Shown piece by piece: positions 32,460 to 61,700 of a DNA stretch of 64,000 nucleotides; the stretch's first letter is position 1; each line of letters starts with the position of its first letter. The notes under the pieces were generated by a model that was not told where the DNA came from, did no database searches, and worked only from the letters and a program-made list of their open reading frames with translations. The translations under genes and the position numbers were made by a program. The stretch lies in NCBI RefSeq assembly GCF_014645235.1, contig NZ_BMLM01000001.1, positions 434,001 through 498,000 of the forward strand. The letters run 5' to 3'. The DNA comes from Agrococcus terreus (GTDB lineage Bacteria > Actinomycetota > Actinomycetes > Actinomycetales > Microbacteriaceae).

Positions 32460-35930
<3,471 letters not shown>

Positions 35931-35971
35931 TCCGGCCGCAGCATACGAATCTTCAGACAAGAGGGAACACA

Positions 35972-39859
<3,888 letters not shown>

Positions 39860-44600: not shown

Positions 44601-47600
44601 CGTCAACCAGCCGCCGTTCGCGCAGACCGACGAGGTGACGGTGCGGCCCGGCCGCGCGATCGCGATCGACGTGCTCGCCAACGACACCGACCCGGACCAG
44701 GATCCGCTCTCGATCGTGGTGGACGGGCTCCAGGACCTGCCCGAGCAGCTCTCCGGCGCCACCGTGAACCCCGAGCGGCAGACGGTCGACATCGTCTCGC
44801 CGACCGAGGTGGGCACCTACCAGTTCACGTACGGCATCGTCGACTCCAAGGGGGCTCCCGCGCGGGGCACCGTCGTCGTCGACGTCGCCGAGGACGCGCC
44901 GCTGCTGGCCCCGATCGCGCGCGACGACCCGCTGCCGCGCGACGGCGTGGTGCTCGGCGAGCCGCTCGACGTGCCCGTGCTCGACAACGACCTCGACCCC
45001 GACGGCGACCCGAGCGAGCTCGACGTCTCGGTCGTCACGGGGCCGGGCACCGTCACGGCGGCCGGCGCGGTGCAGGTCGTGCCGAGCGAGGCGTTCCAGG
45101 TCGTGACGTATCGCGTCACCGACATCGACGGGCTCACCGCCGAGGCGTTCGTCTCGGTGCCGCCGGTGCGCGACCAGGCCCCGTTCGTCTCCCGCACCGA
45201 GCCGATCCAGATCCCCTCGGGCGAGCTGCGCGAGATCCCGCTGCGCGACTACGTCTCCGTCCCGAGCGGCAAGCCGCCGCGCATCACGACGGGCGACTCC
45301 GTCACGGGCGTCAACCACGACGACACGGGGCTCATCAAGGACACCCAGACGCTGCAGTTCCGGTCGCCCGCCGGCTACGTTGGTCCTGCGTCCATCACGT
45401 TCGAGGTCACCGACGGCTCCGGCCCCGACGACCCCGAGGGCATCACGGCGATGCTCACGATCCCGATCGAGGTCCTCCCCTCGAGCGCGGTGCCGCCGAC
45501 CTTCGCGGGCACGGTGCTGCGCCCCGAGGCGGGCGAGGGGTCGACGACGTTCGACCTCCGTGACGCGACCACCGATCCCGACCCCGGTGACCTCGAGGAC
45601 ATGCGCTTCGAGCTCGCCGGCGGCAGCATGGCCGGGGTCACGGTCGGGCTCGACGGCCCGATCATCTCGGCGGACGCGGTCGTCGACGCGGTCCCCGGAA
45701 CGACCGGATCGTTCCAGATCGTCGCGATCGACCCGGCGGGCAACCGCGCGCCCGGCACCGTCGTCGTCGAGGTCGTGGCGACGAACCGGCCCCTCGCCGA
45801 GGCACGTCCCGACTCGGGCGAGGCCACCGCGAGCGAGCCCATCATGATCGACGCCCTCGCGAACGACTTCAACCCGTTCGCGACCGATGGCCGGCCCCTG
45901 CGCATCATCAGCGCCGAGACCATCGCGGGCCAGGGCGCCGTCGCCAACAGCGAGCGCGACGTCACCATCACGCCTGGCGCCGACTTCTCGGGAGTCCTGA
46001 CCGTGCGCTACACGGTGCAGGACGCGACCGAGCGCACCGAGCGGCAGGTGACGGGCACGATCACCCTCAACGTGAAGGCCCGCCCCGACGCGCCGCCGCG
46101 CCCGAACGTCGACGCGGTCGGCGACTCGCAGGTCACGCTCACCTGGGCGCCGCCGCCGTCGAACGGCGCGCCGATCCAGACCTACACCGTGCGCTCCGTC
46201 GACGGCGCGATCAGCCAGGACTGCGCCGCGACGACGTGCACGATCACGGGCCTGTCGAACAACGTCACGTACCGCTTCCAGGTGACCGCGACGAACGAGG
46301 TCGGCGAGTCCGACCCGTCGACGCCCTCGAACGAGGCGCGTCCGGACGTCCGTCCGGAGCAGCCTGCGCCGCCGACGGTCGAGCGCGGCGACGGCCAGGT
46401 CGCGCTGACGTGGGAGGCGCCGGTCAACAACGGCTCGCCCATCCAGTACTACACGGTCGAGATCTCCCCGCCCGCGCCCGGCGGCGTCGTGCAGCAGCAG
46501 GTGCAGGGCACGAGCTACACCTGGGGCAGCCTCACGAACGGCGTCTCGTACACCTTCCGCATCCAGGCGACCAACCTCGCGCCCGAGCCGAGCGACTTCT
46601 CCGCCTACTCGCAGGCCGTGACGCCGGCGGGTGCGCCGTTCCAGGTGGCCTCCGTCCGCGCGACGCCCGACCGCTCGATCCCGGGCGAGGTGCAGGTGCG
46701 CGTCGAGTGGGACTACCCGCCGGGCCAGAACGGCATCGACGGCAACAACGGCGCGGCCATCACCGGCTACACGGTCACGCCCTCCAACGGGGCGGCGGCG
46801 CAGACGGTGAGCGGCACGAGCGCGAACTTCGGCTTCGACGCGACGGGCCAGAACGTGACGTTCACGGTCGTGGCGAACAACGACGTCGGCTCCGGCCAGC
46901 CCTCGCCGCCGTCGGCGCCCATCCGCGTGTTCACCGCGCCGGGCGCGCCCTCGGACGTGTCGGCGACCGACGGCAACACCGACTCGGTCGTCACCTGGAC
47001 GCCGGGCGCGAGCAACGGCCTCCGCGCCGACGAGATCCGCTACGAGATCACGGGCGGCGGCGCGGGCGCGCAGTCGTTCGGGCCGGGCGGGACGTACACC
47101 CGCATGGACAACAACGGCGGGCCGTACACGTTCCAGGTGCGGGCCTACGCCGTCGTCGACGGCGTGGAGTACTCGAGCGGCACGACGTCGGCGAGCAACC
47201 AGTCCCGGCCGTTCGGGGCGGTCGGTGCTCCCTCCGCATCGGTCGCAGACCGGCAACAGCGCCAGATCACGTTCGCATGGAGTTCTCCGCAACCGAACGG
47301 CCGATCACTCACCACCGAGATTCGTGTAGACGGGGGAGCTTGGCGATCGGTCGCCGCGAGCGGCAGAGAAACCGTCGGAGGGGCGCCAGGGTCAGACCAT
47401 TGGCTCGAGGTGCGCGTGACGTCAAGTGCGTTCGACGCCAACAACGATCCGTTGTCAGGTCATGGATCCCAACGATCCTCCAATCGAGCTGACGGAAGAA
47501 TCCCAGACCTCCCCGAACCGAGCCTCAGTCTCAGCAAGGGCGGGCAGGTCACGGCTCCGAACGGCCAGATCGGCACGAACTACGTCCTGACCTGGACCGA

Positions 47601-47808
47601 TCTTGTGCCAGGTCAGCAGTACCGGTACGAGTGCTACTCCACCCGTAGCGGCAACTTCCAGGGCGGCACATGGACGGCGCCCAGAGCGAATGGGACGTCG
47701 CCTCGTGACACCTACACGTTCTGCATGTCCGGGTATAGCGGCCAGGGATGGATGACTCTCTCCGCGAACGGCAAGACCTGGACAACCCAGCGAGTGGACT
47801 GGCCATGA
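41683..47808 (+). CDS. Giant cadherin/Ig-like and fibronectin-III repeat surface protein
   Basis: About 2041 residues. A TTG start (LLRWIKRHR) follows GAGGGG by eight bases; a GTG 12 codons upstream is an alternative. One membrane helix (about 10-32) anchors an extracellular chain: a beta-rich head to about 365, an acidic linker (QEESEEQDEESTED), then roughly eleven ~90-residue cadherin/Ig-like repeats marked by (N)D-x-DPDGD-type calcium-site motifs, and about five fibronectin-III units (PSNGAPIQTYTV, NNGSPIQYYTVEI, NNGAAITGYTV). It starts the type VII secretion locus, and MoxR follows 31 nt after it. Such Ig-repeat proteins head similar loci in Microbacteriaceae. An adhesin or a wall-spanning scaffold for the secretion machine is inferred. 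The last ~550 nt have lower GC and unusual codons. Confidence 0.85.
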   Translation: MLRWIKRHRRSSAAGALVTAVSVALGVLAFTYEGFTTTDVDLNDGGVWVTKTETLQLGRINVQAEELDAGLISPTANLDVLQDGERVLLHNREASTAIVVDPVQVATGNGIQLPPQGEISMDAGVVSVLDPADGNLWAMPYDELAAFSPEGTDPLLELGEGAAAVVGRDGTVHAVSPREGQQVEIRLGEDGALEEPELRDRGELTGMQDPVVTAVGADAVTIDVATTTLLVPGGAVEVPEDAAVQLPGDAADRVIVATPESLVRQPLSGGDAEVEQRVGGGDAVRPVQLGGCVHAVWPASATYYRDCQDDAADLDVQVDGMDGSPVVFRVNRDAVVLNQYQEGSSWLLADQLILVDNWEDLIPPQSQEESEEQDEESTEDLLTNQPPPINEENSDPVANDDGFGARPGRSTLLPVLWNDSDPDGDVLTASVISGLPQGVTVAPVANDSQLQVQLPADYPTGSFSFRYQVQDGRGGDDDAQVTVTVRGEAENTVPEPLREQAFAVEQGGEYEYQVLDNWFDPDGDDMYLVGAVSDSGDTIRTDPSGRLIYVATGEVGIQTVTVTISDGRAETTGEVTVDIRERGDAPPLANADFVQMVEGREATIRPLLNDFSPSGRPLRLASVEPAAGLDMTWDANAGTIRITDGPIGTHYMTYLVADGPLPSTGRIRVDIRTPDEEARPIAVRDVALVPQGGSTLVDLLQNDVDPAGGVLVVTQISLENGAPVTVELRDRRIVSIVDNRGLDSPFRFTYTVSNGRFSETGTVEVIPVTPPEQPRAPVAVDDRATIRAGDYATVDVLGNDFSPDGTPFELVEQIVETSFESDAVGVAFIAEGKLRVHVLAEEPPTRATVTYEVKDDFGNRDSATVALTIVPREAEQNAPPAPVTVTSRVLAGSTVRIPIPLEGIDPDGDGVELVGYDTAPEGGRILPEIGPDFFDFEAFPDSSGAVDFTYRVRDRYGAESTATVVIGIAQASDVNQPPFAQTDEVTVRPGRAIAIDVLANDTDPDQDPLSIVVDGLQDLPEQLSGATVNPERQTVDIVSPTEVGTYQFTYGIVDSKGAPARGTVVVDVAEDAPLLAPIARDDPLPRDGVVLGEPLDVPVLDNDLDPDGDPSELDVSVVTGPGTVTAAGAVQVVPSEAFQVVTYRVTDIDGLTAEAFVSVPPVRDQAPFVSRTEPIQIPSGELREIPLRDYVSVPSGKPPRITTGDSVTGVNHDDTGLIKDTQTLQFRSPAGYVGPASITFEVTDGSGPDDPEGITAMLTIPIEVLPSSAVPPTFAGTVLRPEAGEGSTTFDLRDATTDPDPGDLEDMRFELAGGSMAGVTVGLDGPIISADAVVDAVPGTTGSFQIVAIDPAGNRAPGTVVVEVVATNRPLAEARPDSGEATASEPIMIDALANDFNPFATDGRPLRIISAETIAGQGAVANSERDVTITPGADFSGVLTVRYTVQDATERTERQVTGTITLNVKARPDAPPRPNVDAVGDSQVTLTWAPPPSNGAPIQTYTVRSVDGAISQDCAATTCTITGLSNNVTYRFQVTATNEVGESDPSTPSNEARPDVRPEQPAPPTVERGDGQVALTWEAPVNNGSPIQYYTVEISPPAPGGVVQQQVQGTSYTWGSLTNGVSYTFRIQATNLAPEPSDFSAYSQAVTPAGAPFQVASVRATPDRSIPGEVQVRVEWDYPPGQNGIDGNNGAAITGYTVTPSNGAAAQTVSGTSANFGFDATGQNVTFTVVANNDVGSGQPSPPSAPIRVFTAPGAPSDVSATDGNTDSVVTWTPGASNGLRADEIRYEITGGGAGAQSFGPGGTYTRMDNNGGPYTFQVRAYAVVDGVEYSSGTTSASNQSRPFGAVGAPSASVADRQQRQITFAWSSPQPNGRSLTTEIRVDGGAWRSVAASGRETVGGAPGSDHWLEVRVTSSAFDANNDPLSGHGSQRSSNRADGRIPDLPEPSLSLSKGGQVTAPNGQIGTNYVLTWTDLVPGQQYRYECYSTRSGNFQGGTWTAPRANGTSPRDTYTFCMSGYSGQGWMTLSANGKTWTTQRVDWP

Positions 47809-47839
47809 CGTCACATGAACAGGAAAGCGAAGGCGCCCG

Positions 47840-48817
47840 ATGACCCCCATGACCCGCGAGCAGGCGACGTGGTTCGCCGAGACGTTCCAGCGCCTCGTCG
47901 ACAACGTCGGCACGGTCGTGCTCGGCAAGGAGGACGTGATCCGCCTCGCCTTCACGACGATGCTCTCCGAGGGCCACCTGCTCCTCGAGGACGCCCCCGG
48001 CACCGGCAAGACGCAGCTGGCGAAGTCGATGTCGGCGACCGTGCAGGGCACGAACCACCGCATCCAGTTCACGCCCGACCTGCTGCCCTCCGACGTCACG
48101 GGCGTCACCGTCTACGACCAGAAGACGCAGGCGTTCGAGTTCCACAAGGGACCGATCTTCGCCTCCATCGTGCTCGCCGACGAGATCAACCGCGCGAGCC
48201 CGAAGACGCAGTCGGCGCTCCTCGAGGTCATGGAGGAGGGCCGCGTCACCGTCGACGGCACGCCCTACGACGTCGGCCGCCCCTTCATGGTCATCGCGAC
48301 GCAGAACCCCATCGAGCAGGCCGGCACGTACCGCCTGCCCGAGGCGCAGCTCGACCGCTTCCTCATGAAGACGTCGATCGGCTACCCGGGCCGCGAGCAG
48401 ACCGTGCGGATCCTCGCCGGCGCCTCGAACCGCAACGCCTCCTCCGGCGTCACCCCGGTCATCACGACGGGCGCCATCGCCGAGATGGTCGACCTCGCCG
48501 CGACCGTCCACGTCGACGAGGCCGTGCTCGACTACGTCGCGCAGCTCGCCGAGCACACGCGCGACTCGAAGGACACGCGCCTGGGCGTCTCGGTGCGCGG
48601 CGCGATGGCGCTCATGCGCGCCGTCAAGGTGTGGGCCGCGAGCCGCGGCCGCGCCTACGCGCTGCCCGACGACGTCAAGGAGCTCGCGCAGCCAGTGTGG
48701 GCGCACCGCGTCGTGCTCGACCCCGAGGCGGAGTTCTCGGGCGTCACCGGCGACCGCATCATCGACCGCGCGATCGCCGACATCGCCGCCCCGCAGGACC
48801 GGCAGCAGGCCGCGTGA
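47840..48817 (+). CDS. MoxR-family AAA+ ATPase
   Basis: 325 residues. AAA_3 type: LEDAPGTGKTQLAK (Walker A at 52-58), LADEINRASPKTQSALLEVMEE (Walker B, DEIN 114-117), VIATQNPIEQAGTYRLPEAQLDRF (sensor 1 region). MoxR ATPases act as chaperones that insert cofactors or assemble partners with DUF58 proteins, exactly the gene that follows (GTGA overlap). Here it probably serves maturation of the surface or transglutaminase-like proteins of the locus. Confidence 0.93.
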   Translation: MTPMTREQATWFAETFQRLVDNVGTVVLGKEDVIRLAFTTMLSEGHLLLEDAPGTGKTQLAKSMSATVQGTNHRIQFTPDLLPSDVTGVTVYDQKTQAFEFHKGPIFASIVLADEINRASPKTQSALLEVMEEGRVTVDGTPYDVGRPFMVIATQNPIEQAGTYRLPEAQLDRFLMKTSIGYPGREQTVRILAGASNRNASSGVTPVITTGAIAEMVDLAATVHVDEAVLDYVAQLAEHTRDSKDTRLGVSVRGAMALMRAVKVWAASRGRAYALPDDVKELAQPVWAHRVVLDPEAEFSGVTGDRIIDRAIADIAAPQDRQQAA

Positions 48818-50190
48818 CGACGGCGCCCGAGCGGGCGACGTCAGCCCCCGCCCCCGACACCGACACCGCGACCGGCACGACCGGCAGCACCGCATCCGGC
48901 ACCACCCGGCTGCGGCGCATCGCCGAGCGCGAGCGCACGCCGCTGCAGCGGCTCGTCGACGGCGCCGTCGGCGCCGGCTCGCCGCTCGACGGCGCGCGCC
49001 GCGCCGCCGGACGGATGCTGCGCGACCGCGTCGTGCCGGTGCTCGAGCCCATCACGGGCTTCGGATGGGCGGTGCTCGTCGTCACGGTCGCGGCGCTCGT
49101 GCTCGGCATCATGCTCGGCTGGAAGGAGCTCATCGTGATCGGCATCGCCGGCGCGCTGCTGCTGCTCGCGGGCATCGCCTTCATCATCGGTCGCAACCGG
49201 TACCGGATCGAGCTCGACCTCGCCTACACGCGCGTCGTCGTCGGCGAGCGCGCGCTCGGCCGCATCGAGATCCACGCCGCCTCGCCCAAGCCGCTGCTGC
49301 CGGCCACCATCGAGGTGCCCGTCGGCCGCGCGCTCGCGTCGTTCCACCTGCCGCGGATGCGGCCCGGCGACGTCCACGAGGATGTCTTCGCGATCCCGAC
49401 GAGCCGCCGCACGATCCTCCAGGTCGGCCCGGTGCGCTCGGTGCGGGGCGACCCCGTGGGCCTCCTGCGCCGGCAGGTGAAGTGGACCGACCCGGTCGAG
49501 CTGTTCGTGCACCCGAAGACGGTGCAGCTCGACGAGACCGCGCCGGGCCTCATCCGCGACCTCGAGGGCATCACCACGCGCGACCTCACGAACAGCGACA
49601 TCGCGTTCCACGCGCTGCGCGACTACGTCGCGGGCGACGACCGCCGCTACATCCACTGGAAGTCGTCCGCGCGCACCGGCTCGCTCATGGTGCGCCAGTT
49701 CGAGCAGACCCGGCGCAGCGTGCTCGCGCTCGGGCTCTCGACCAACCCCGAGGACTACGCCGACCCGAGCGAGTTCGAGACCGCCATCTCGGTGCTCGGC
49801 TCCGTCGGCCTGCAGGCGGTGCGCGACGAGATGGACGTCGTCGTGCAGACCTCGCGCCGCACCCTCCCCGCCACCACCGGCAAGCGCCTCCTCGACGGCC
49901 TCTCGGGCGTCGAGTGGTCGCCGCGCCACGACCGCTTCCTCGACCTCGCCGCGACGATCGGCCAGGCCCACGCTGGCGCCTCCGTCGTGCTCCTCCACGC
50001 AGGCGCCGTCGTCGACCCGGCCCTCGTGCGCCGTGCGCGCACGCTGCTGCCGTCGCAGGCGCGCGTCATCGTGGTGAGCGCCGTGCAGGGCGCGAGCCCG
50101 CGCATCCAGCCCATCGGCGACGTGGTGCTCGCCACCGTCGGCGCGGTCACCGACCTGCCGCGCGTGATGCGAGGGGTGGCGCTCCAGTGA
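48814..50190 (+). CDS. DUF58 domain membrane protein
   Basis: 458 residues, GTG overlapping the MoxR stop. The N-terminus is Thr/Ala-rich; two close transmembrane helices (about 85-130) precede a beta-rich section and the DUF58 signature YVAGDDRRYIHWKSSARTGSLMVRQFE (from about residue 270), followed by a vWA-like C-terminal domain. DUF58 proteins are the usual partners of MoxR ATPases and transglutaminase-like membrane proteins; the three genes here form that classical trio. Confidence 0.9.
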   Translation: MTTAPERATSAPAPDTDTATGTTGSTASGTTRLRRIAERERTPLQRLVDGAVGAGSPLDGARRAAGRMLRDRVVPVLEPITGFGWAVLVVTVAALVLGIMLGWKELIVIGIAGALLLLAGIAFIIGRNRYRIELDLAYTRVVVGERALGRIEIHAASPKPLLPATIEVPVGRALASFHLPRMRPGDVHEDVFAIPTSRRTILQVGPVRSVRGDPVGLLRRQVKWTDPVELFVHPKTVQLDETAPGLIRDLEGITTRDLTNSDIAFHALRDYVAGDDRRYIHWKSSARTGSLMVRQFEQTRRSVLALGLSTNPEDYADPSEFETAISVLGSVGLQAVRDEMDVVVQTSRRTLPATTGKRLLDGLSGVEWSPRHDRFLDLAATIGQAHAGASVVLLHAGAVVDPALVRRARTLLPSQARVIVVSAVQGASPRIQPIGDVVLATVGAVTDLPRVMRGVALQ

Positions 50191-52502
50191 GGGCACGTCC
50201 CCGTCGCCTGCTGCCGCGCACGCCGCGGGAGGCCGCGGTCGACTGCGCCGCGATCCTCGCGGTCATGCTCGTCGCGACGCTGTCGTTCGGCCCCGTCTTC
50301 GGCGGCGTCGCCTACCTCGTCGCGGGCATCGGCGGCGCGCTCGCCGGCATCGGCGTCGGCATCGCCACCTCGCTCCGGCCGCTGCGCGGCTGGCTCATGA
50401 CCGCCGCGGGCGTCGTGCTCGTGATCGTCGTGCTGGGCCCAGCGCTCGCGGTGCCGCGCGCGACGATCGGCGGCGTGATCCCGACGCTCGACGCCTGGCG
50501 CGAGCTGCTGCTCGGCGTCGTCTACTCGTGGAAGGGCCTGCTGACGGCCGAGCCGCCCGCCGAGGGCTTCCCGAGCCTCCTCGTCGTGCCGTTCCTCACG
50601 ACCCTCGTCACCTCCACCGTCGCCACGGTGCTCGCGCTGCGGCTCGGCCGCGGCGCGCCCTTCGCGATGATCCCCGCGTCCGTCGCGCTGATCGTCGGCA
50701 TCGCCTTCGGCACGAAGATCGCCTTCTGGCCGATCGTGCTCGGCGTCGTCGTCGCCGGAGTGATGGTGGGCTGGTGCTCGTGGCGCCGCGAGGCGTGGCG
50801 GACCGGGCTCAACGAGGAGGTCGAGGTCACGAACGACACGCGGCACCGCGGCCAGGCCCGGCGCCAGCGCACGCTCGGCGCCGTCGGCATGGTCGCGGGC
50901 GCGCTGCTCGTCGCGGGCCTCGTCAGCATCCCCGTCCAGCCGCGCGACCGCGCGGTGCTGCGCGACGTCGTCGAGCCGCCCATCGAGCTCGCGGAGTACC
51001 CGAGCCCGCTCGCCGGCTACCGCACCTGGAACAAGAACTTCGAGGACGAGACGCTGCTGACGGTCTCGGGCATGCCCGAGGACGGCCGCCTGCGGCTCGC
51101 GACCTTCGACTACTACGACGGCACCGTGTACGCGGTGGCGGGCAGCCAGCAGACGAGCGGCTCCGGCACGTTCTCGCGCATCGGCGACGAGGTGCTCACC
51201 TCGCAGTCCGGCGACCCCGCGAGCGTGCGCGTCGCCATCGACGCCTACACGGGCATCTGGGTGCCCGACATCGGCTTCCTGCAGGCGCTCGACTTCGACG
51301 GCCCGCGCGCCGACCAGCTCCAGGGCTCGCTCCACTACAACGCGCAGACCGGCACGGCGATCGCGCTCGACGGCCTGGGCGCCGGCGACTCCTACGCGCT
51401 CGACGCGATCGTGCCGCAGCAGCCGTCGGTCGACGAGCTCGAGGGCGTCCCGGTGACGGAGCTCCAGGTGCCGCAGGCGGCGGTCGTGCCGGACCTCCTC
51501 CAGGCCTGGGTCGTCGAGCACGGCTCGAGCGGGCAGTCGAAGCTCGAGAACATCGTCGCGATGCAGCAGCTGCTGCAGGCGGGCTCCTTCAGCCACGGCC
51601 TCGAGGACGACGCGATCCCGTCGCTCGCGGGCCACGGCGCCTCGCGCATCCAGTCGATGTTCGAGCGCGACGTGCTCGTCGGCGACGACGAGCAGTACGC
51701 GACCGCCTTCGCGCTCGCGCTGCAGCGCATCAACGTGCCCTCGCGCGTCGTGATGGGGCTCTACCCCGACGACGGCTTCCCCGGCGGCGACGCCGAGGTC
51801 GAGCTCACCGGCGGCGACATGCACGCCTGGGTCGAGATCCCCTTCGAGGGCTACGGCTGGGTGCGGTTCGACCCGACGCCGCCCGAGGAGAACCAGGACA
51901 TCCAGCCCGAGCCCGAGCCGCAGCCCGAGCCGAAGCCGCAGGTGCTCCAGCCGCCCCAGCCGCCCGAGGAGCCGGCCGAGATGTCGCCCGACACCGTGGC
52001 CGAGGAGGGCCAGGAGGAGGACGAGGAGCTCGAGGACCGGTCGTGGACCGTCTGGCTCTGGGTGGCCGGCTCGATCCTGCTGCTCGTGCTGCTGCTGCTC
52101 TCGCCGTTCCTGATCGTCGGCGCCATCAAGGCCGCCCGCCGCAAGCGCCGCTTCCGGGCGGAGCGCGAGAGCGACCGCCTCGCGGGCGGCTGGCACGAGG
52201 TGGTCGACGAGGCGGTCGACCTGGGCCTGCTCGTGCCCGCCGGCGTCACCCGCCGCGAGGTCGCCCGCGAGGTCGAGGATCGCTACCCTCGATCGCGAGC
52301 GACCGAGATCGGCGAGTTCGTCGATGCGGGCGTGTTCGGCCCGGGCGAGCCCGAGCGCGAGGACGTCGACGCCTTCTGGCGCGACGTCGAGCGCAGCGTC
52401 GAGGGCATGCGCTCCGAGGCGTCGCGCCGACGGAGGGTGCTCGGCAGGCTGTCGCTGCGCTCGTTCGTGCGGCGCAGGGGCGAGCGACGGCGACGAGGAT
52501 GA
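50187..52502 (+). CDS. Transglutaminase-like (TgpA-type) membrane protein, catalytic Cys replaced
   Basis: 771 residues, GTG overlapping the DUF58 stop. About six N-terminal helices, a large extracytoplasmic part, a transglutaminase-like core at about 490-570, a Pro/Glu-rich linker, one more helix (about 630-652) and a cytosolic basic tail. In the core the usual GxCEQF nucleophile motif reads VGDDEQYATAFAL, so the catalytic Cys is Asp501. The His and Asp positions (GDMHAWVEIPFEGYGWVRFDPTP) are retained. The domain is therefore probably not a cysteine-type transglutaminase or protease but a binding or structural version. It is part of the MoxR-DUF58-transglutaminase trio. Confidence 0.88.
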   Translation: MRARPRRLLPRTPREAAVDCAAILAVMLVATLSFGPVFGGVAYLVAGIGGALAGIGVGIATSLRPLRGWLMTAAGVVLVIVVLGPALAVPRATIGGVIPTLDAWRELLLGVVYSWKGLLTAEPPAEGFPSLLVVPFLTTLVTSTVATVLALRLGRGAPFAMIPASVALIVGIAFGTKIAFWPIVLGVVVAGVMVGWCSWRREAWRTGLNEEVEVTNDTRHRGQARRQRTLGAVGMVAGALLVAGLVSIPVQPRDRAVLRDVVEPPIELAEYPSPLAGYRTWNKNFEDETLLTVSGMPEDGRLRLATFDYYDGTVYAVAGSQQTSGSGTFSRIGDEVLTSQSGDPASVRVAIDAYTGIWVPDIGFLQALDFDGPRADQLQGSLHYNAQTGTAIALDGLGAGDSYALDAIVPQQPSVDELEGVPVTELQVPQAAVVPDLLQAWVVEHGSSGQSKLENIVAMQQLLQAGSFSHGLEDDAIPSLAGHGASRIQSMFERDVLVGDDEQYATAFALALQRINVPSRVVMGLYPDDGFPGGDAEVELTGGDMHAWVEIPFEGYGWVRFDPTPPEENQDIQPEPEPQPEPKPQVLQPPQPPEEPAEMSPDTVAEEGQEEDEELEDRSWTVWLWVAGSILLLVLLLLSPFLIVGAIKAARRKRRFRAERESDRLAGGWHEVVDEAVDLGLLVPAGVTRREVAREVEDRYPRSRATEIGEFVDAGVFGPGEPEREDVDAFWRDVERSVEGMRSEASRRRRVLGRLSLRSFVRRRGERRRRG

Positions 52503-52515
52503 CGCGGAGGATGCG

Positions 52516-54165
52516 GTGATCTGGGAGATCGAGGACGGCCGGAAGGTCGTCGAGGGGCTGGACGAGACGGGCCGCCCCGACCCCGAGTACGCCGCGGCGC
52601 TGGGCCTGCGCCCGGCGCCCGCCGGACGGCGCGCGCTCGCCTCGCTCATCGAGTTCGCCGTGTGGGCGCTGCTGCAGCTGCCGTACTGGCTCGTGGCGCT
52701 GCCGACGCTCGTGAAGGTCGCGACCGGCGCCCTCCAGCCGTGGGGGCTCGCGAGCCACCCCGACCTCGTGTGGATGATCGTCGCGACCGCGATCTCGAGC
52801 GTGCTCACCCTCGCGTTCGTCATCGTGCAGCTCGTGCTGCACGGCCGCCGCGGCGTGACGCTCGGCAAGGCGCTCCTCGGCATCCGGAGCGTCGACGTGC
52901 GGACGCTCGCGCGGCCCGGCATCCGCCGCTCGGTGCTGCGCGGCCTCGTGCTGTGGGCGTCGTTCCTGCTGCCCGTGATCGGACCCGCGCTCTTCCTCGC
53001 CTCCCCGCTGCTCGACCGCGAGAAGCGCGGCCGCGGCTGGCTCGACCTCGCCGCCGGCACCTGGTTCGTCGACGTGCGCGACGGCCTCGACCCGTACCAC
53101 GACAAGAAGATGCGTATCGCCCGCAAGACGGTCGCCGCCGAGCCGGAGGCCGAGCGCTCGCAGCTGCCCTCGCTCGCGACCCCCGCCGACAGCGCGGGCC
53201 TCGCGTACCGGCCCGGCGCCCGCACGAGCTCAGGCGTCGTCGGCGCCGCGCGCCCCCAGGCCCCGGGGGAGCAGCGGCCCATCGGCCTCGCCTCGCAGCA
53301 GCCCACCGAGCCGGCCCCCTCGCACACCGTGCCCGGCATGCCCTCCGGCGGCGCCCGCCTGGGCGGCTACCGCCCGGGCGAGCTGAGCGGCGACCCGCGC
53401 GCGGGCCGTCCCGACGCCGCGGCGCCGAGCGCGCCCGCGCCCGGCCTCGCGGGCGGCATCGTCGACAGCGTGCCCGGACGCGATCGGTCCGCACCCGCAC
53501 CGGCACCGTCGCCCGGCTGGCAGCAGCCCGCCGCGCCGCAGGCGCCCGCGGCATGGCAGCCGCCCGCGTCGGCTCGCGAGCGAGCCATCCCGGACTCGGC
53601 GATCCCGGGCCAGGCCAGCCCCGAGCAGACCAGCCCGATCGCCGACGAGACGGTCGTCGAGGTCGAGCACGAGGCGCCGCGGCAGCCCGACGCGGCGGCA
53701 CCGCAGGCGGCACCGCTGGCCGCGCCCGTCGCGCCTGCCGCGTCCGCCGCCGACGAGATCGACGACCGCACGGTCCGGCGCATCGAGATCGTGGAGGATG
53801 ACGACGACCTCGAGGCCACGCGTGCTCGCGTCCCCGCCCGCGCGGCGGCCGCCACGCTGGCGTTCGACTCGGGCGAGCGCTTCGCCATCACCGGCGCCGC
53901 GCTCATCGGCCGCAACCCCTCGCCCTCGCCGGGCGAGGTCGTCGACCACCTGCTGCCGATCGCCGACGACACCCGCTCGGTCTCGAAGACGCACCTGCTC
54001 ATCGCCGTGCGGCCGCTCGCCGCGGTCGACCGCGCGTCGACGAACGGCTCGAGCGTCGTGCGCGCCGGCGCCGAGCACCCGCTCGAGGCGGGCAGGCCCT
54101 TCCCCCTCGCTCCGGGCGACGTCGTGCGCTTCGGCGACCGCAGCGTCGTGATCGAGGGCGCATGA
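52516..54165 (+). CDS. RDD membrane domain-FHA domain protein
   Basis: 549 residues, GTG with GGAGG five bases upstream. The N-terminal part is an RDD domain (about 30-200) with three helices and the GVTLGKALLGIRSVDV segment. A ~240-residue Pro/Ala/Gln-rich linker leads to an FHA domain (about 450-545) with IGRNPSPSPGE, SVSKTHLLI and ASTNGSSV, the phosphothreonine-binding loops. It likely brings an FHA reader to the membrane for a phosphorylated partner of the kinase encoded downstream. It overlaps the PP2C gene by 4 nt. Confidence 0.88.
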   Translation: MIWEIEDGRKVVEGLDETGRPDPEYAAALGLRPAPAGRRALASLIEFAVWALLQLPYWLVALPTLVKVATGALQPWGLASHPDLVWMIVATAISSVLTLAFVIVQLVLHGRRGVTLGKALLGIRSVDVRTLARPGIRRSVLRGLVLWASFLLPVIGPALFLASPLLDREKRGRGWLDLAAGTWFVDVRDGLDPYHDKKMRIARKTVAAEPEAERSQLPSLATPADSAGLAYRPGARTSSGVVGAARPQAPGEQRPIGLASQQPTEPAPSHTVPGMPSGGARLGGYRPGELSGDPRAGRPDAAAPSAPAPGLAGGIVDSVPGRDRSAPAPAPSPGWQQPAAPQAPAAWQPPASARERAIPDSAIPGQASPEQTSPIADETVVEVEHEAPRQPDAAAPQAAPLAAPVAPAASAADEIDDRTVRRIEIVEDDDDLEATRARVPARAAAATLAFDSGERFAITGAALIGRNPSPSPGEVVDHLLPIADDTRSVSKTHLLIAVRPLAAVDRASTNGSSVVRAGAEHPLEAGRPFPLAPGDVVRFGDRSVVIEGA

Positions 54166-54986
54166 GCGCCATCGGGGAGTTCCGCTTCAGCCACCCGTCG
54201 ATCGCGCTGCGCTGGGCCGGGGCCACGCATCCCGGGCGCCGCCGGAAGGTGAACGAGGACTCCGTCTTCGCGTCGTTCCCGGTCTTCCTCGTCGCCGACG
54301 GCATGGGCGGCCACGCCTCCGGCGACGTCGCGAGCGCGCTCGCGATCGAGGCGTTCCGCAGCCTCAAGGGCCGCACGCTCGCCGACGTCACGAGCGTCGA
54401 GGAGTCGGTGGAGCGCGCCTTCGACGACGTGCGATCGCAGGCGGTCGGCGAGCCGGTCGGGGGCACGACGCTCTCTGGGGCGGTGCTCGTCGACGTCGAC
54501 GGCGTCGCGCACTGGCTCGTGCTCAACGTGGGCGACTCCCGCACCTACCTCTACGCCGACGGCGAGCTGGAGCAGGTCACGGTCGACCACTCGGTCGTGC
54601 AGGAGCTCGTCGAGACCGGCGCGCTGCGCCGCGACGACGCGCGCCGGCACCCGCACCGCAACGTCATCACCCGCGCGCTCGGCCCGGGGGAGCAGCACCC
54701 AGCAGACGCCTGGCTCCGCCCCGCGGAGCGCGGCCAGCGCCTGCTCGTCTGCTCCGACGGCCTGAGCGGCGAGGTCGACGACGTCGAGCTCGCCGAGATC
54801 CTCGGCGACGTCGCCTCGCCCGCCGCGGCGGCCGCGCTGCTGCTGCGGCGCGCGCTCGACGCGGGCGCGCCCGACAACGTGTCGGTCGTCGTCGTCGACG
54901 TCGACGCCGTCGCGCTCGACGAGGCGGAGCTGTTCGACACGCACGTCCAGACGCTGGACGACACGATCCCGAGGGAGGGGCGATGA
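54162..54986 (+). CDS. PP2C-family serine/threonine phosphatase
   Basis: 274 residues. Metal-binding motifs are intact: VNEDS (Asp33), VADGMGGHASGD (46-51 core), VLNVGDSRTYLY, LLVCSDGLSG and the final GAPDNVSVVVVDV. It has no membrane segment, so it is a cytosolic Mn/Mg phosphatase. It reverses phosphorylation by the Ser/Thr kinase two genes downstream. ATGA overlaps tie it to the RDD-FHA gene before and the FHA gene after. Confidence 0.95.
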   Translation: MSAIGEFRFSHPSIALRWAGATHPGRRRKVNEDSVFASFPVFLVADGMGGHASGDVASALAIEAFRSLKGRTLADVTSVEESVERAFDDVRSQAVGEPVGGTTLSGAVLVDVDGVAHWLVLNVGDSRTYLYADGELEQVTVDHSVVQELVETGALRRDDARRHPHRNVITRALGPGEQHPADAWLRPAERGQRLLVCSDGLSGEVDDVELAEILGDVASPAAAAALLLRRALDAGAPDNVSVVVVDVDAVALDEAELFDTHVQTLDDTIPREGR

Positions 54987-56539
54987 GCGCCCGCATCGAG
55001 TACGCGCCCGGCGAGGCGTGGTGCGTCGCGAGCGGCCGCGCCGTCGTCGTCTGCGAGCGCGACCTCCCGGTCGAGCGCGCCGCCGCCCTGCACGCCGCGC
55101 TCGGCGCCGTCGCCGACGCCGCGGGCCTCCGCGCGCTGCTCGCCGCCGAGCCCGCCGCGCTCATCGGCGCGGTCGACGAGCCGGGGTCGCGCGCGCTGCT
55201 GCGCCGCCACGGCGTGCCCGCCACCGCCGACGGCCGGCCGCTGCCCGACCGCTTCGGCGCCGACTGGGCCGACGACGCGATCGCGCCCGGCGAGGTCGTC
55301 GCCGCGGGCGGCCTCGCTGCGCTCGACGGCGCCCTGCTGCCGCTCGAGGGCGGCGTGGTGCGCGTCGCCGCGGTCCGCGTCGCGCCCGCGCCCGGGCCCG
55401 CCGCGGAGCCGGCGCCGGAGCCTGTCGTCGAGCCCGCGCACGGCGCCTTCGGCCAGACCCTGCCGCCGGCCGCCGCCGCGGCGGTGCTCGACGAGCGCGC
55501 CGAGCCCGCGGCTGCGGCGCCCGCGGCAGAGCCCGCTGCCGCTGCGGCGGAGCAGGCGCCCGAGGCGCCCGTGTCGGGGGAGACGCCGGAGGCATCCGAG
55601 CCGGAGCAGCTGCCGGAGGCGCCCGAACCCGAGATCGCCGTCCCTGAGCCGGAGCCGGAGGCTGCCGCCCCCGAGCCGGAGCAGGACCCCGAGGCGCCCG
55701 AGCCCGAGCAGGCTCCTGAGGCGCCCGCCGTCGCGGACGCCCCGCCGACCGGCGAGCACCCGCTGCCCGCCGCCCCCGAGGCGCCCGCGCTCGCCGACGC
55801 CCCGGCCGAGCACGCCGGCCCGCTCGGCGGTCTCATCGACTCGGTGCCCGGCTTCATCCGGCCCGCCGCCGAGGTGCGGCCGCAGGAGCCCGCGCCCGCG
55901 CAGCCCGAGCCCGATCGGGCGCAGCTCGCCCCGAGGCCCGCCCCGACCGCCCCGGCGTCGCCGGCGCTCGACGAGGGCGACCACGACGGGATGACCGTCA
56001 CGGCCGAGCAGGCCCGCGCCCTGCTCGGCGACCGCGCACCCCGCTCCGGCGGCATCGACGTCGCGTCGCCGGCCACGGGCCCGCTCGTGCTCTCGACGCT
56101 CTGCCCGGTCGGCCACGTGAACGCGCCCGGCAGCGCGACCTGCGGCACCTGCGGCGCCGCGATCGACGAGGGCTCCGCAGCCCAGCGGCGCCGCCCCGAG
56201 GTCGCCGTCGCCGTCCTGCCCTCGGGCGAGCGCATCCCGCTCGGCCGCGGCGTCGTGCTCGGCCGCCGGCCGCGCTCGCGCCGCGTGGAGGACGGCCGCG
56301 TGCCGCGCCTCGTGACGGTCGACAGCCCCAGCGAGGACATCTCGCGCAGCCACCTCGAGCTGCGCGTCGACGACTGGAACCTCGTCGCCGTCGACCTCTC
56401 GTCCACGAACGGCACGCTCCTGCTCCGCGACGGCGCCGCGCCGCAGCGCCTGCGCCCCGAGTCGCCGACCATCCTGCAGCTCGGCGACCGCCTCGACCTC
56501 GGCGACGACGTCGTCCTCCGGATCGAGTCGGCACCGTGA
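54983..56539 (+). CDS. FHA domain protein with zinc ribbon
   Basis: 518 residues. N-terminal domain of unknown type (1-135), a long Ala/Pro/Glu-repeat linker (PEAPEPE-like units, about 140-330), a CPxGH-x-CxxC zinc-ribbon-like stretch (C374, C387, C390 in CPVGHVNAPGSATCGTCG) and a C-terminal FHA domain (405-515) with LGRRPRSRR, DISRSHLELRV and LSSTNGTLL. The FHA binds phosphothreonine. It overlaps the kinase gene by 4 nt (GTGA), so it is probably a direct kinase substrate or adaptor. Confidence 0.88.
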   Translation: MSARIEYAPGEAWCVASGRAVVVCERDLPVERAAALHAALGAVADAAGLRALLAAEPAALIGAVDEPGSRALLRRHGVPATADGRPLPDRFGADWADDAIAPGEVVAAGGLAALDGALLPLEGGVVRVAAVRVAPAPGPAAEPAPEPVVEPAHGAFGQTLPPAAAAAVLDERAEPAAAAPAAEPAAAAAEQAPEAPVSGETPEASEPEQLPEAPEPEIAVPEPEPEAAAPEPEQDPEAPEPEQAPEAPAVADAPPTGEHPLPAAPEAPALADAPAEHAGPLGGLIDSVPGFIRPAAEVRPQEPAPAQPEPDRAQLAPRPAPTAPASPALDEGDHDGMTVTAEQARALLGDRAPRSGGIDVASPATGPLVLSTLCPVGHVNAPGSATCGTCGAAIDEGSAAQRRRPEVAVAVLPSGERIPLGRGVVLGRRPRSRRVEDGRVPRLVTVDSPSEDISRSHLELRVDDWNLVAVDLSSTNGTLLLRDGAAPQRLRPESPTILQLGDRLDLGDDVVLRIESAP

Positions 56540-58032
56540 GCCCGAAGCGCGCGCCCTCCGCCCCGCCCGAGCTGCCCGGCTACGACTACCTGTCGCTGCT
56601 CGGCTCCGGCGGCTTCGCCGACGTCTTCCTCTACGAGCAGCAGCTGCCCTCGCGGAAGGTCGCGATCAAGGTGCTGCTGCCGGACGCCGTGAACCGGGAG
56701 CTCATCGAGAACTTCCGCCACGAGGCGAACGTCATGGCGCAGCTGTCGACGCACCCCTCGATCGTGACGATCTACGGGGCGGCGGTGGCCCCCGACGGCC
56801 GGCCGTTCCTCGCCATGGAGTACTGCTCGCGCCCCAACCTCGGCGTGCGCTACCGCCGCGAGCGCTTCGCGGTGCCCGAGGTGCTCGCGCTCGGCGTGCA
56901 GATCGCCGGCGCCGTCGAGACCGCGCACCGCGCCGGCATCCTCCACCGCGACATCAAGCCCGCGAACATCCTCGTCACCGCCTACAACCGACCGGCGCTC
57001 ACCGACTTCGGCATCGCCACGAGCGCGGGCGGCACCGACGACGCGAGCGGCATGTCGATCCCGTGGTCGCCGCCCGAGGCGTTCCTCGACCCGCCCCGGT
57101 CGACGCCCGCCTCCGACGTCTTCTCGCTCGCCGCGACCCTCTCGACGCTGCTCGCCGGGCGCACGCCCTTCGAGATGCCGGGCGGCTCGAACTCGAGCGT
57201 CGACCTCATCGACCGCATCCAGCGCGGCGAGCTGTCGCCGCTCGCCCGCAGCGACGTGCCCGCCCGGCTCGAGGCCGTCCTCGCATCGGCGATGGATCCG
57301 GACCCGTCGCGCCGCTACTCGAGCGCCGTCGCCTTCGCGCGCGCGCTCCAGCAGGTCGAGGCCGAGATGGCGCTGCCCGTCACGCCGCTCGACGTGCTCG
57401 ACGAGGGGATGGACGAGGGCGAGACGGAGGAGCAGGACGGCGGCGCCACGCGCATCCGCGGCGTCGTCTCGATCGACCCCCACGCCGGCGAGGCGCCCCC
57501 GTCGTTCGCCCCGCCGCAGGCCGCCGCGGCCGTGCCCGACGCCACGGTGCGCCGCGCGCGCCCCGCGCCCGCCGCAGTCGCGCCGGACGCCCCCGCCGCC
57601 GCGCCCGCCCCGGCGCCGCGCAGCCGCCGGGGCGCGGCGATCGCCATCGCGGCGAGCGCCGCGGTGCTGCTCGTCGGCGGCGGGATCGTGGTCATGGCGC
57701 TGTCGGGCGGCGGCGCCCCGACCGTGTCGGCGAACCCCACGCAGACCGTCGCCCCGCCGCCCGCCGCGCAGCGGCCGCCCGCGCCGATCGCGGTGCAGGG
57801 CGAGATCGAGGGCGAGACCGTGCGGTTCAGCTGGACGAACGCGCAGCCGCAGGACGGCGACACCTTCCGCTACCGCTACGTCGCGGAGGGCGCCGACCCG
57901 GTGATCTCGAGCGTGAGCGCCACCGAGGTCGTGCTCGAGCGCGACCCCGACGGCACGTCGTGCATCCTCGTGAGCCTCGTGCGCTCCGACGGGCGCGACT
58001 CGAACGATGCGGAGGGATGCGTCGATGGCTGA
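56536..58032 (+). CDS. Membrane-anchored Ser/Thr protein kinase
   Basis: 498 residues, GTG overlapping the FHA gene. Hanks-type kinase with intact motifs: glycine loop LGSGGFADV (22-30), Lys45, Glu63, HRDIKPAN (137-144), DFG (157-159) and SPPE in place of APE. A Pro/Ala linker, one transmembrane helix (about 366-388) and a ~110-residue extracellular beta domain resembling a fibronectin/Ig fold follow. It can couple an outside signal to phosphorylation of the FHA proteins and the FHA-bearing ATPase of the locus. There are no PASTA repeats, so it is not a PknB orthologue. Confidence 0.94.
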   Translation: MSPKRAPSAPPELPGYDYLSLLGSGGFADVFLYEQQLPSRKVAIKVLLPDAVNRELIENFRHEANVMAQLSTHPSIVTIYGAAVAPDGRPFLAMEYCSRPNLGVRYRRERFAVPEVLALGVQIAGAVETAHRAGILHRDIKPANILVTAYNRPALTDFGIATSAGGTDDASGMSIPWSPPEAFLDPPRSTPASDVFSLAATLSTLLAGRTPFEMPGGSNSSVDLIDRIQRGELSPLARSDVPARLEAVLASAMDPDPSRRYSSAVAFARALQQVEAEMALPVTPLDVLDEGMDEGETEEQDGGATRIRGVVSIDPHAGEAPPSFAPPQAAAAVPDATVRRARPAPAAVAPDAPAAAPAPAPRSRRGAAIAIAASAAVLLVGGGIVVMALSGGGAPTVSANPTQTVAPPPAAQRPPAPIAVQGEIEGETVRFSWTNAQPQDGDTFRYRYVAEGADPVISSVSATEVVLERDPDGTSCILVSLVRSDGRDSNDAEGCVDG

Positions 58033-58771
58033 GACCCTGGCCCCGGTGCTGCAGGTGGAGTTCGCGGGGGAGTGGTTCGCGCTCGACCCGCAGCGCCCGT
58101 TCGTGATCGGCCGCGAGGGCGACCTCACCGTCGACGACAACCAGTACCTCCACCGCGCGTTCCTCGACGTGCGGTTCCAGGACGGCCTGTGGTGGCTGTC
58201 GAACGTCGGCTCGCGGCTCTCGGCGACGGTGTCGAGCGCGGGCGGTGCGGTGCAGTCGTGGCTCTCGCCCGGCGCGCGGCTGCCGATCGTGTTCGAGGAG
58301 TGCTCGATCGTCTTCACCGCCGGCCCCACGACCTACGAGCTCGGCGTGCACTGCGACGACCCCTCGTTCGCGATGTCGACCGAGCACCGCCGTCGCAGCT
58401 CCGGCGAGACGACCGTGATGCCCGTCGGCCTCACGCAGCTGCAGAAGCTGCTCATCGTGGCGCTCGCGGAGCCGATGCTGCGCCGCGACGGCGTCGGCGT
58501 GAGCGAGCTGCCCACCTCGGGCGCCGCCGCCGAGCGGCTCGGCTGGACGATGAGCCGCTTCAACCGCAAGCTCGACAACGTCTGCGACAAGCTCGACCGG
58601 ATGGGCGTGCAGGGGCTGCGCGGCGGCGTCGGCAACCTCGCGAGCAACCGCCGAGCGCGGCTCGTCGAGTACGCCGTCTCGTCGCAGCTCGTCACCCGCA
58701 CCGACCTCGCCCTCCTCGACGACGCCTCGCTGCGCGCCGCCGACGACGCCCAGGACCAGGAGACCGCATGA
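58025..58771 (+). CDS. FHA-like protein with helical, possibly DNA-binding C-terminus
   Basis: 248 residues, ATG 8 bp inside the kinase gene, with GGAGGG upstream. The N-terminal ~110 residues form an FHA-like beta sandwich (PFVIGREGDLTVDDNQYLHR, WWLSNVGSRL) but without the usual SxxH and N signatures. The C-terminal ~130 residues are helical: LTQLQKLLIVALAEPML ... GVSELPTSGAAAERLGWTMSRFNRKLDNVCDKL, which reads like a winged helix-turn-helix. It may be a transcriptional regulator or an ATPase adaptor. ATGA overlap with the secretion ATPase gene. Confidence 0.78.
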   Translation: MAETLAPVLQVEFAGEWFALDPQRPFVIGREGDLTVDDNQYLHRAFLDVRFQDGLWWLSNVGSRLSATVSSAGGAVQSWLSPGARLPIVFEECSIVFTAGPTTYELGVHCDDPSFAMSTEHRRRSSGETTVMPVGLTQLQKLLIVALAEPMLRRDGVGVSELPTSGAAAERLGWTMSRFNRKLDNVCDKLDRMGVQGLRGGVGNLASNRRARLVEYAVSSQLVTRTDLALLDDASLRAADDAQDQETA

Positions 58772-61700
58772 AGGTCAAGCTGACGCTGCACCGCCCCGCA
58801 GCCGACCCCACCGACGTCGTCATCACCGCCGACTCCACCGCGACCGTCGAGGACGTCGCGCGGCAGATCGCGCTCGCCGACCCGGCCCGCTCCATCCCGG
58901 TCGCCGAGGGCGACACGCTCTCGCTCGCGGTGGCGCCGCCCACCGAGCAGAGCCTCGTGCAGCTGCAGCCCGACGCGCTCATCGGCGAGGCGCCGCTCGG
59001 ATCGGGCTTCCACGCCCAGGTCGTGAACCTCGGTGCCGGGGCGTCGCGCCACGGCGGTCCCGCCGGCAGCGCGCTCGACGCCGTCGCGGTGCTCCGCGTC
59101 GTCGGCGGCCCCCTCCGCGGCCAGGAGTTCCAGCTCGGCCGCGGCCACGCGACGATCGGCCGCGACCCCTCGAACCAGATCGTGCTCGCGGATCCGCTCG
59201 TCTCCAAGCGCCACGCGCGCATCGAGGTCGGCGCCCACGTGGAGGTCGTCGACCTCAACTCCGCCAACGGCGTGCTGGTCGACGGCGGCCTCGTCTCGCG
59301 CCTGCGCGTCACGCCCGGCGCGGTCTTCACGATCGGCGACAGCGAGCTCACCGTGCAGCTCGCGGGGGCCTTCGACTCGTCGGGCCCCGACCCCGTGCTC
59401 GAGCGCGGCGGCGCACTGCTGTTCAACCGCTCGCCGCGCGTCGAGGCCCGCTACCCGGGCACCGCCTTCGACGGCCCGCGCATCCCGCGCGAGATGATCC
59501 AGCGGCTCTTCCCGTGGCCGATGCTCGTCGCGCCCATCCTGCTCGCCGGCGCGATGTACGCGCTCACCGAGAACCCGCGCTCGATCCTCGTCGCCCTCAT
59601 GACGCCGCTGATGCTGCTCGGCAACTTCATCAACATGAAGACGCAGAACGGCCAGCGCCGCAAGTTCGAGGTGCAGATGTTCGAGCAGAAGTTCGAGGAG
59701 CTCGAGGAGACGCTGTACCGCGAGAAGCCGAAGGAGGAGGCGGTGCGCGGCATGGAGGTGCCGCCCGTCGCCGAGGTCTTCGAGCACGCGATGCGGCTCG
59801 GGCCGATGCTCTGGACCCGGCGTCCGGAGCACTGGAACTTCCTCTCGGTGCGGCTGGGCACCTGCCAGGCGGAGTCGCGCAACTCCATCAAGGAGGAGGA
59901 GCAGCAGGACGGCCTGCCCGAGTACCTCGACCGCGTCGAGCGCCTCCGCGACCGCTACCGCCACGTCGACGACGTGCCGATCGTCGAGTCGTTCGAGTCG
60001 GTCGGCTCGATCGGCATCGCGGGCCCCAAGTCGCTCGCGGCCGACGCGCTGCGCGGCCTCGCGGTGCAGCTCTACGGCCTGCACGCCCCCAACGAGGTCG
60101 TCACGGTCGCGCTCTGCGACGCCGACTGGACGGGCGAGCTCGAGTGGATGAAGTGGCTCCCGCACACGACGAGCGAGACGAGCCCGTTCAAGGAGATGCC
60201 GCTCGCCGACTCCGCGACCGCCGGCACCGCGCTGCTCAACGCGCTCGAGGAGCTCGTCATGGGCCGCTCGAAGTCGGCGACGCCCGAGCGCAAGACCCCG
60301 TACGACGAGGACTGGGACCCGATGCGGTACGGCACCGACGTCGAGCGCGCGGCGAAGGACGCCGTCCGCAGCATCCAGACCTCCGTCGTGGTGGTCATCA
60401 CGAACGACGCGCCCGTCGACCGCCCGCGCCTCACGCAGATCCTCGAGCGCGGCGCCGCCGTCGGCGTCCACGGCGTGTTCGTCGCCCCGACGGTCGAGTC
60501 GCTGCCGGCCGTCTGCCGCTCCTACGTCGACGTCACCGCGGGCCTCGAGGCCGCTACGGCCGGCACCGTCCGGTCGGGCGTCGCCTACGAGGGCGTCCGC
60601 GTCGAGGGCGTCTCCGGCGAGTACATGCAGATGTTCGCCAAGCGCCTCGCACCGGTCGTCGACGCGAGCATCGTCATCACCGACTCCTCCGACATCCCCG
60701 ACTCGGTGATGTTCCTCTCGCTCGTGGGCCCCGAGCTCGCCGAGGACCCGAACGCGGTCATCGAGCGCTGGCGGCAGAACAACACGATCCTCGACCGCTC
60801 CGGCGGGCAGAAGCCGCGGCTGAAGAAGGCGGGCACGCTGCGCGCCATCATGGGCCAGGGCGCGACCGACGCGATGACGCTCGACCTCCGCACGCAGGGC
60901 CCGCACGCCCTCGTCGGCGGCACGACCGGCGCCGGCAAGTCGGAGTTCCTGCAGGCCTGGGTGCTCGGCATGGCCGCGGCGCACAGCCCCGACCGCGTCA
61001 CGTTCCTCTTCGTCGACTACAAGGGCGGCTCCGCGTTCGCCGACTGCGTCGACCTGCCGCACTGCGTGGGCCTCGTCACCGACCTCAGCCCGCACCTCGT
61101 GCGGCGCGCGCTCACGAGCCTCCGCGCCGAGCTGCACCACCGCGAGCACCTCTTCAACCGCAAGAAGGCGAAGGACCTGCTCGAGCTCGAGAAGCGGCAG
61201 GACCCCGAGACGCCGCCCGCGCTCGTGCTCGTCATCGACGAGTTCGCGGCGCTCGCGGGCGAGGTGCCGGAGTTCGTCGACGGCGTCGTCGACATCGCCC
61301 AGCGCGGCCGCTCGCTCGGCATCCACCTGATCATGGCCACGCAGCGGCCCGCGGGCGTCATCAAGGACAACCTGCGCGCGAACACCAACCTGCGCGTCGC
61401 GCTCCGCATGGCCGACGAGTCGGACTCGAAGGATGTCGTCGACGACCCGATCGCCGCCTCCTTCCCGCCCTCCATCCCGGGCCGCGGCATCGCGAAGACC
61501 GGCCCCGGGCGGCTCGTGCCGTTCCAGTCGGCCTACGCGGGCGGCTGGACGCGCTCCGACGAGGGCACCGCCGCCGACGTGAAGGTCGACGAGCTGCGAT
61601 TCGGATCGCTGCAGCGGTGGGAGCCGGCGGCGCCGCCCGAGTCGGACGCGCACGACGAGGACCTCGGCCCCAACGACCAGAAGCGGATCGTGCGCACCCT

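Follow-up and report, generated by a model that had tools for sequence, protein, structure and literature searches.

The described systems closest to the locus reported here are the PFNA operon of bifidobacteria, the T7SSd subtype of type VII secretion and the EsaA/YueB proteins of Bacillota, for which we draw on parts of five papers (PMC8430577, PMC6803598, PMC12607495, PMC10688814 and PMC11217815). The PFNA operon (pkb2-fn3-aaa-atp-duf58-tgm) encodes a membrane-bound FN3 protein of about 2000 amino acids (aa), followed by MoxR, DUF58 and transglutaminase genes. The C-terminal region of this protein is reported as its most variable part (PMC12607495), and adhesion and a cytokine binding that requires the C-terminal region have been described for it (PMC8430577, PMC12607495). 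In the portions of PMC6803598 on which we rely, PFNA is said to have no orthologs outside bifidobacteria and to show no recombination; the methods given there removed divergent regions with Gblocks, which may have hidden variable tips. An FtsK ATPase and a WXG100 protein are the two components common to type VII systems, and T7SSd comprises an FHA-FtsK ATPase, a WXG100 protein, a membrane kinase (TsdD) and TsdI, a giant immunoglobulin (Ig)-like protein thought to span the envelope, while EsaA/YueB are extended extracellular proteins that span the wall and are encoded beside type VII genes (as treated in the sections of PMC11217815 used here). The 64-kb stretch of DNA analysed here (the window), from Agrococcus (family Microbacteriaceae; genome G000), holds fn3, MoxR-type ATPase, DUF58 and transglutaminase genes in the PFNA order, and both type VII hallmarks, the FtsK/SpoIIIE (EssC/EccC) ATPase and WXG100, are present, their role in secretion being predicted. 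We propose that the 3′ end of the giant fn3 gene of this window is an exchange hotspot, a reading to which we assign a probability of about 0.85; the exchange, its boundaries (47224 and the start of moxR) and its recurrence in relatives are well supported.

The giant protein runs from an N-terminal charged and then hydrophobic segment through a Big_9/cadherin-like array and FN3 domains to a C-terminal tip, and its reading frame stays open as far as the stop codon at 47806-47808, in keeping with the preliminary description of the window, which had taken the protein to continue in frame through a break in composition. That description had estimated about 62% GC for 47281-47820 and about 75% just upstream; the first figure is borne out (0.622) and the second is somewhat high, being 0.733 in 46681-47220 (both 540 bases) and 0.737 in the whole window, and 47281-47820 is the lowest-GC 540-base window of the 64 kb in 30-base steps. 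GC at third codon positions (GC3) falls from 0.981 in the body (1859 codons) to 0.706 in the tip segment (194 codons), with a maximum-likelihood changepoint at 47224 (47206-47224 within 2 units of log-likelihood; log-likelihood ratio 83.5), which confirms the break 16 bases before the 47240 at which it had been placed. The codons AGA, GTA, TTG, TCA, TAT and CTT, said to be rare elsewhere, are indeed enriched, albeit few, with 4 in the body against 11 in the tip segment. A GC3 drop of at least 0.27 over the last 195 codons is met in none of 114 long open reading frames (taken stop to stop, with approximate starts) in a 400-kb sample of the same genome, in which the largest drop is 0.122; internal windows at GC3 of 0.71 or less number 78 of 2621 in that sample, the lowest lying in genes with normal ends. 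GC at first codon positions is 0.57 in the window tip, 0.71 in the body and 0.53-0.61 in seven related tips, so amino-acid make-up accounts for part of the GC drop. GC3 in six of these seven tips is 0.89-0.97, and only that of G010 (0.73) is as low as in the window tip.

The giant protein is matched in 24 of 24 Agrococcus genomes, which are separate species and not strains of one species; the genus alignment holds 22 orthologs and six second copies, without the partial sequences of G012 and G020 and without additional copies from G005 and G023 (G023 has one internal stop). Against the closest ortholog, that of G019, identity per 60 residues from 47047 runs 86, 43, 27 and 25%, the drop beginning at 47227, while the same blocks against G017 give 76, 57, 73 and 72%; body and tip identities are 79 and 30% for the first pair and 72 and 75% for the second. 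Thus the switch from conserved to unrelated sequence that the preliminary description expected among related strains is found, at the GC break, among species, and tips equally conserved and sharing the GC drop were not found among the Agrococcus genomes. Body and tip are 98 and 45% identical between G010 (A. lahaulensis DSM 17612) and G016, 96 and 53% between G010 and G011 (A. pavilionensis RW1), and 97 and 53% between G011 and G016. At the DNA level the identity of G010 and G016 is 97-100% up to a point about 1.4 kb short of the stop; over the final 0.7 kb it is 46-65%, and within moxR it returns to 96%. The divergent island starts about 1.1-1.4 kb ahead of the stop and ends in the first 90 bases beyond it. 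The 3′ flank is likewise conserved in the window, moxR being 94-96% identical in DNA to that of G019 over most of its length. As a separate observation, the G010 and G016 bodies (98-100% DNA identity, L176 2801-6600 versus L174) are closer than their downstream operons (mostly 91-97%), a sign that exchange or homogenisation may have affected the body too.

The trees of body and tip are in conflict. The body tree groups G000 with G019 (100/99), G010 with G011 and G016 (100/100) and G014 with G007 (99/99), groups that were picked for testing after the identities were seen and that the tip data reject in the approximately unbiased test (p 8e-7, 4e-4 and 6e-8, respectively); the body data in turn reject G000 with G017 (p 3e-34). 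In the tip tree G014 joins G008 and G021 joins G007, while G000, G017, G001, G015 and G022 are set apart, the last two on long branches. Six tip classes, set after the tip tree, require 12 changes on the body tree against a minimum of 5 (18 of 22 genomes, excluding G005, G010, G022 and G023). G021 shares the last FN3 part of the window protein (61-63%) and not its tip, whereas G001 shares the tip (71-73%) and not the FN3 part, so that the last FN3 domain and the tip need not have a single history. The gap and the opening codons of moxR are, in some genomes, like those of species whose tips fall in the same class. The ratio of nonsynonymous to synonymous substitution (dN/dS) stays under 1 in all 18 pairs with tips at least 65% identical (0.02-0.79; three pairs are second copies without a cysteine tip), indicating that the tips are constrained. 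Between G000 and G017 the synonymous divergence (dS) of the tip, about 1.0, exceeds the 0.44 of the body, so that no close relative in the sample is the source; of the claim that the tip was recently exchanged, exchange stands and "recently" is unproven, as the donor lies outside the sample and this dS is to the nearest known tip.

Microbacterium, Promicromonospora, Occultella and Micrococcus/Citricoccus show the same pattern. In a set of 62 named loci, bodies are at least 90% identical in 22 pairs (not independent of one another), of which 11 have tips of 31-64% identity and the other 11 tips of 78-96%. Body and tip are 91 and 37% identical between M. paraoxydans and M. oxydans, 97 and 57% between P. 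kroppenstedtii and P. sukumoe, 91 and 38% between Micrococcus and Citricoccus, and 88 and 50% between two Occultella. Furthermore, 12 of 13 chosen loci (L068, L069, L070, L071, L089, L095, L100, L118, L126, L139, L146 and L153) carry two adjacent giant-gene copies whose tips are 16-50% and bodies 49-90% identical, six first copies being cut by the locus edge; in the tandem copies of G099 the body is 90%, the FN3 part 88% and the tip 34% identical. A body segment is matched in 72 of 119 genomes of an order-level sample, many of these only via short FN3-containing stretches.

The tip is modelled as an Ig/FN3-like beta-sandwich. A 215-residue two-domain model (last FN3 domain and tip) and an AlphaFold2 (AF2) model of the 98-residue tip alone are all beta, with mean predicted local distance difference test (pLDDT) scores of 90 and 95. 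The former matches mainly FN3 tandems (best Z 8.7, root-mean-square deviation (rmsd) 6.0, 163 residues aligned) and the latter assorted Ig-like domains (Z up to 9.2, rmsd 2.5, 82 aligned), a common arrangement and hence a generic likeness. Foldseek with the tip alone gave no match at an expect value (E) of 0.001 or below in the PDB or in viral models, a PDB sequence search gave weak FN3 and antibody matches only, NCBIfam gave nothing useful, and none of 23 pattern matches in a contig search by the single tip was confirmed. All 56 aligned rows keep the two cysteines, and at least 90% carry a terminal tryptophan, 15 of 71 rows having been excluded by eye beforehand, mostly for lack of a recognisable two-cysteine tip (L109, L110, L117, L124, L125, L127, L128, L131, L132, L140, L141, L142, L144, L145 and L146); a further tip alignment took 53 rows. 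Read by eye, the N-terminal charged and then hydrophobic segment suggests a membrane anchor that would leave the C-terminus outside, which fits an anchored, fibre-like protein.

We therefore picture the exchange as follows. The 3′ end of the giant gene, about 194 codons encoding the last FN3 domain and the two-cysteine beta-sandwich tip, would have been replaced by an allele from a lower-GC3 source outside the sample, and tip alleles would reassort among species of Agrococcus and other Actinomycetota, tandem copies holding different tips. Homologous recombination is the probable route, with the conserved FN3 array and the conserved moxR as anchors on either side. The N-terminal membrane anchor and the Ig/FN3 array may carry the tip through the wall as the outermost part of the protein, the tip would serve as a recognition domain of which alternatives are favoured by a changing partner, and the fibre may serve the adjoining type VII secretion genes. 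That the same spot has been swapped repeatedly in relatives suggests that the tip recognises something that changes, such as phages, rivals or surfaces. We tentatively extend this to a model, on balance doubtful, in which the giant protein, with its exchangeable tip, forms the variable recognition end of a type VII apparatus of actinobacteria that differs from the published subtypes and is assisted by MoxR, DUF58 and transglutaminase proteins, in which the tip decides which cell, surface or phage is met, and in which the bifidobacterial PFNA cluster is related to this apparatus.

Several observations weigh against an exchange hotspot at this position. Closely related pairs often have the same tip, and no tip donor was found, plasmids, phages and viral contigs giving no match; in 398 family genomes the best match to the tip outside the genus is only 39% identical. 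The low-GC3 signature is not general: in 58 loci with moxR directly downstream (of 63 near-full named loci, 7 of 70 being partial and excluded), tip GC3 lies more than 0.10 below the body in 10, by no more than 0.10 in the rest and 0.10 above it in none, and the tip is not clearly distinct from the segment ahead of it (p 0.063), which itself lies slightly below the body. Identity to G019 drops to 52-60% in the low-complexity linkers at 53.4-53.8 and 55.4-55.8 kb, and a linker of this kind is 42-50% identical in the pair G014 and G007, a value below that of their tips. A crude comparison of gene ends does not set the giant gene apart: a fall in identity of 30 points or more over the last 110 aa is seen in 9 of 55 pairs for this gene, in 15 of 55 for the DUF58 gene and in none of 55 for four other genes. 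No co-exchanged partner is seen in the operon, where the dips beyond the tip are linkers, Pro/Ala-rich as judged in the window protein. Strong tip GC3 drops were also noted in L128 (0.89 to 0.46), L117, L131, L143 and L099 (0.93 to 0.57), from Propionibacteriaceae, Occultella, Citricoccus and another Microbacteriaceae.

No exchange would be needed if the tip evolved very rapidly through point mutations and small indels, with selection that is diversifying or relaxed and a composition that drifts. This could account for tips being the least conserved part in most pairs and for a tip dN/dS in G019 pairs (0.60-0.79) above that of the body (0.45-0.49), but it is at odds with a switch that is abrupt at one linker, with unrelated tips on bodies 96-98% identical, with dN/dS below 1 within tip classes and with tips that group across the body tree, vertical groups being rejected; we reject gradual divergence on the abrupt identity switch and the conflict of the trees, and regard this account as most improbable. 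Programmed variation within one genome, by retroelement-guided mutation, invertible DNA or silent cassettes, is nearly as improbable. The tandem copies of other genomes could recombine, and a 16-nt inverted repeat (88%) has arms at 47207-47222, at the junction, and 47551-47566, possibly by chance; against this, whole domains and flanking DNA differ, the window genome has no match to the PF00078 reverse transcriptase (3 of 14 control genomes are positive), and the tip has a single match (E of 0.001 or below) in its own genome, which leaves no silent cassette of recognisable similarity, so that retroelements and silent cassettes were rejected on these two grounds. An artefact of assembly or contamination is rejected as the whole explanation, and its probability is close to nil, since the same kind of switch recurs in independent genomes and both frame and operon continue across it.

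What the tip does can be weighed on the same evidence. A swapped C-terminus beside type VII genes is what would be seen if the tip were the toxic domain of a polymorphic toxin, delivered to neighbours perhaps via the adjoining type VII system, and the preliminary description had drawn a likeness to toxin tips. Toxin tips usually differ in fold, whereas these share the two cysteines, the terminal tryptophan and the Ig/FN3-like model; moxR follows the stop after just 31 bases, leaving no immunity gene directly behind the tip, and PADLOC has no match for the giant protein. The likeness is not supported, the toxin being rejected on the 31-base gap and the common residues, and we consider it highly improbable. 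More evenly placed is the possibility that the exchange is as we propose but driven by adhesion or ligand sensing (a surface polymer or host signal), as proposed for the bifidobacterial FN3 protein. The adhesion and C-terminal cytokine binding cited above favour it and the tip model resembles Ig-like adhesin domains, though such matches are common; some of the relatives live in soil or water, where host cytokines would be an unlikely ligand. We hold this to be a real contender at clearly less than even odds, and place phages or rival bacteria ahead of adhesion substrates as the driver, again short of an even chance. YueB is the receptor of phage SPP1, and we use EsaA/YueB as an analogy only, for phage pressure on proteins of this kind.

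With PFNA the window locus further shares kinase, PP2C phosphatase and FHA genes nearby and the start of the FN3 domains, near residue 1490 there and 1482 here. It differs in that pkb2 comes first there, whereas here the kinase lies at the far end and none directly before fn3 (the preceding gene, at 39.9-41.5 kb, has no kinase match), and in that the window operon continues into type VII genes. Seven genomes of one family of the same taxonomic order, not shown to be bifidobacteria, carry fn3-moxR-DUF58-tgpA, with 28-33% identity to the window protein over 1226-1308 aa and a kinase match before fn3 in six of the seven; on alignment and gene order, these are consistent with descent shared with the window operon. 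A kinase domain, a candidate counterpart of TsdD, is present in the window. TsdI has a signal peptide and a C-terminal transmembrane helix, while the window protein ends in a modelled beta-sandwich; the defining C-terminal membrane helix not being seen, we do not file the locus under T7SSd. In the main text of PMC11217815 MoxR, DUF58, transglutaminase and fibronectin are unmentioned, and no link of fn3/pkb2 to type VII secretion was found in the literature matched by fn3/pkb2 terms, an absence limited to those searches.

Surface proteins are known to exchange their tips. As far as the literature was searched, the novelty lies in the present locus, in how widely it occurs and in its type VII context. 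A single exchangeable end domain, shuffled among species in several actinobacterial genera, offers a way into a widespread operon whose function is unclear, as it points to the outward-facing part. Should the operons be homologous, which both gene order and the alignments at 28-33% suggest, the exchange challenges the statements on absent orthologs and recombination in the cited parts of PMC6803598 and ties a PFNA-like cluster to type VII secretion.

Table. Features of the giant gene, its exchanged end and the downstream operon (window coordinates)
Feature	Position	Strand	Basis
Giant protein gene, 2053 aa	41647..47808	+	Translation; Pfam Big_9 (9 stretches), fn3
5′ junction: GC3 changepoint, in linker between last two FN3 domains	47206..47224	+	Changepoint, identity switch, linker alignment
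Exchanged segment: last FN3 domain and tip, GC3 0.71	47224..47808	+	Composition, identity, tip tree
C-terminal tip domain, 98 aa, modelled all-beta sandwich, two cysteines invariant among relatives, terminal Trp	47512..47805	+	AF2, alignments
Gap ahead of moxR	47809..47839	+	31 bases between giant-gene stop and moxR
moxR AAA ATPase	47840..48817	+	Pfam AAA_3
DUF58 protein	48814..50190	+	
TgpA-like transglutaminase membrane protein (start approximate)	50190..52502	+	TgpA_N, Transglut_core
RDD membrane protein (start approximate)	52495..54165	+	
PP2C phosphatase	54162..54986	+	
FHA protein	54983..56539	+	
Serine/threonine protein kinase	56536..58032	+	
FHA-FtsK/SpoIIIE ATPase (type VII EssC-like)	58072..63378	+	
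WXG100 protein	63489..63776	+	PF06013 above cut-off

Microbacterium galbinum and Luteimicrobium xylanilyticum also have the ATPase behind the kinase (73% over 1502 aa in the former, 45% in the latter), and a PFNA-like operon continues into type VII genes in both loci (L190 and L191, the WXG100 match of the latter being below cut-off). PADLOC matches the FtsK portion of the ATPase to mad8 and SspH, which we read as homology shared among such ATPases. Second giant-gene copies at another locus (L034 on contig C2 of the window genome, and L032, L033, L035 and L036) are without the moxR start found behind the main copy, and those of G000, G017 and G019 end without a cysteine tip. Upstream of the giant gene lies rpoC, and the next-lowest GC windows (63-64%) fall at 35461-36210, around the point where the gene preceding rpoC ends and rpoC begins.

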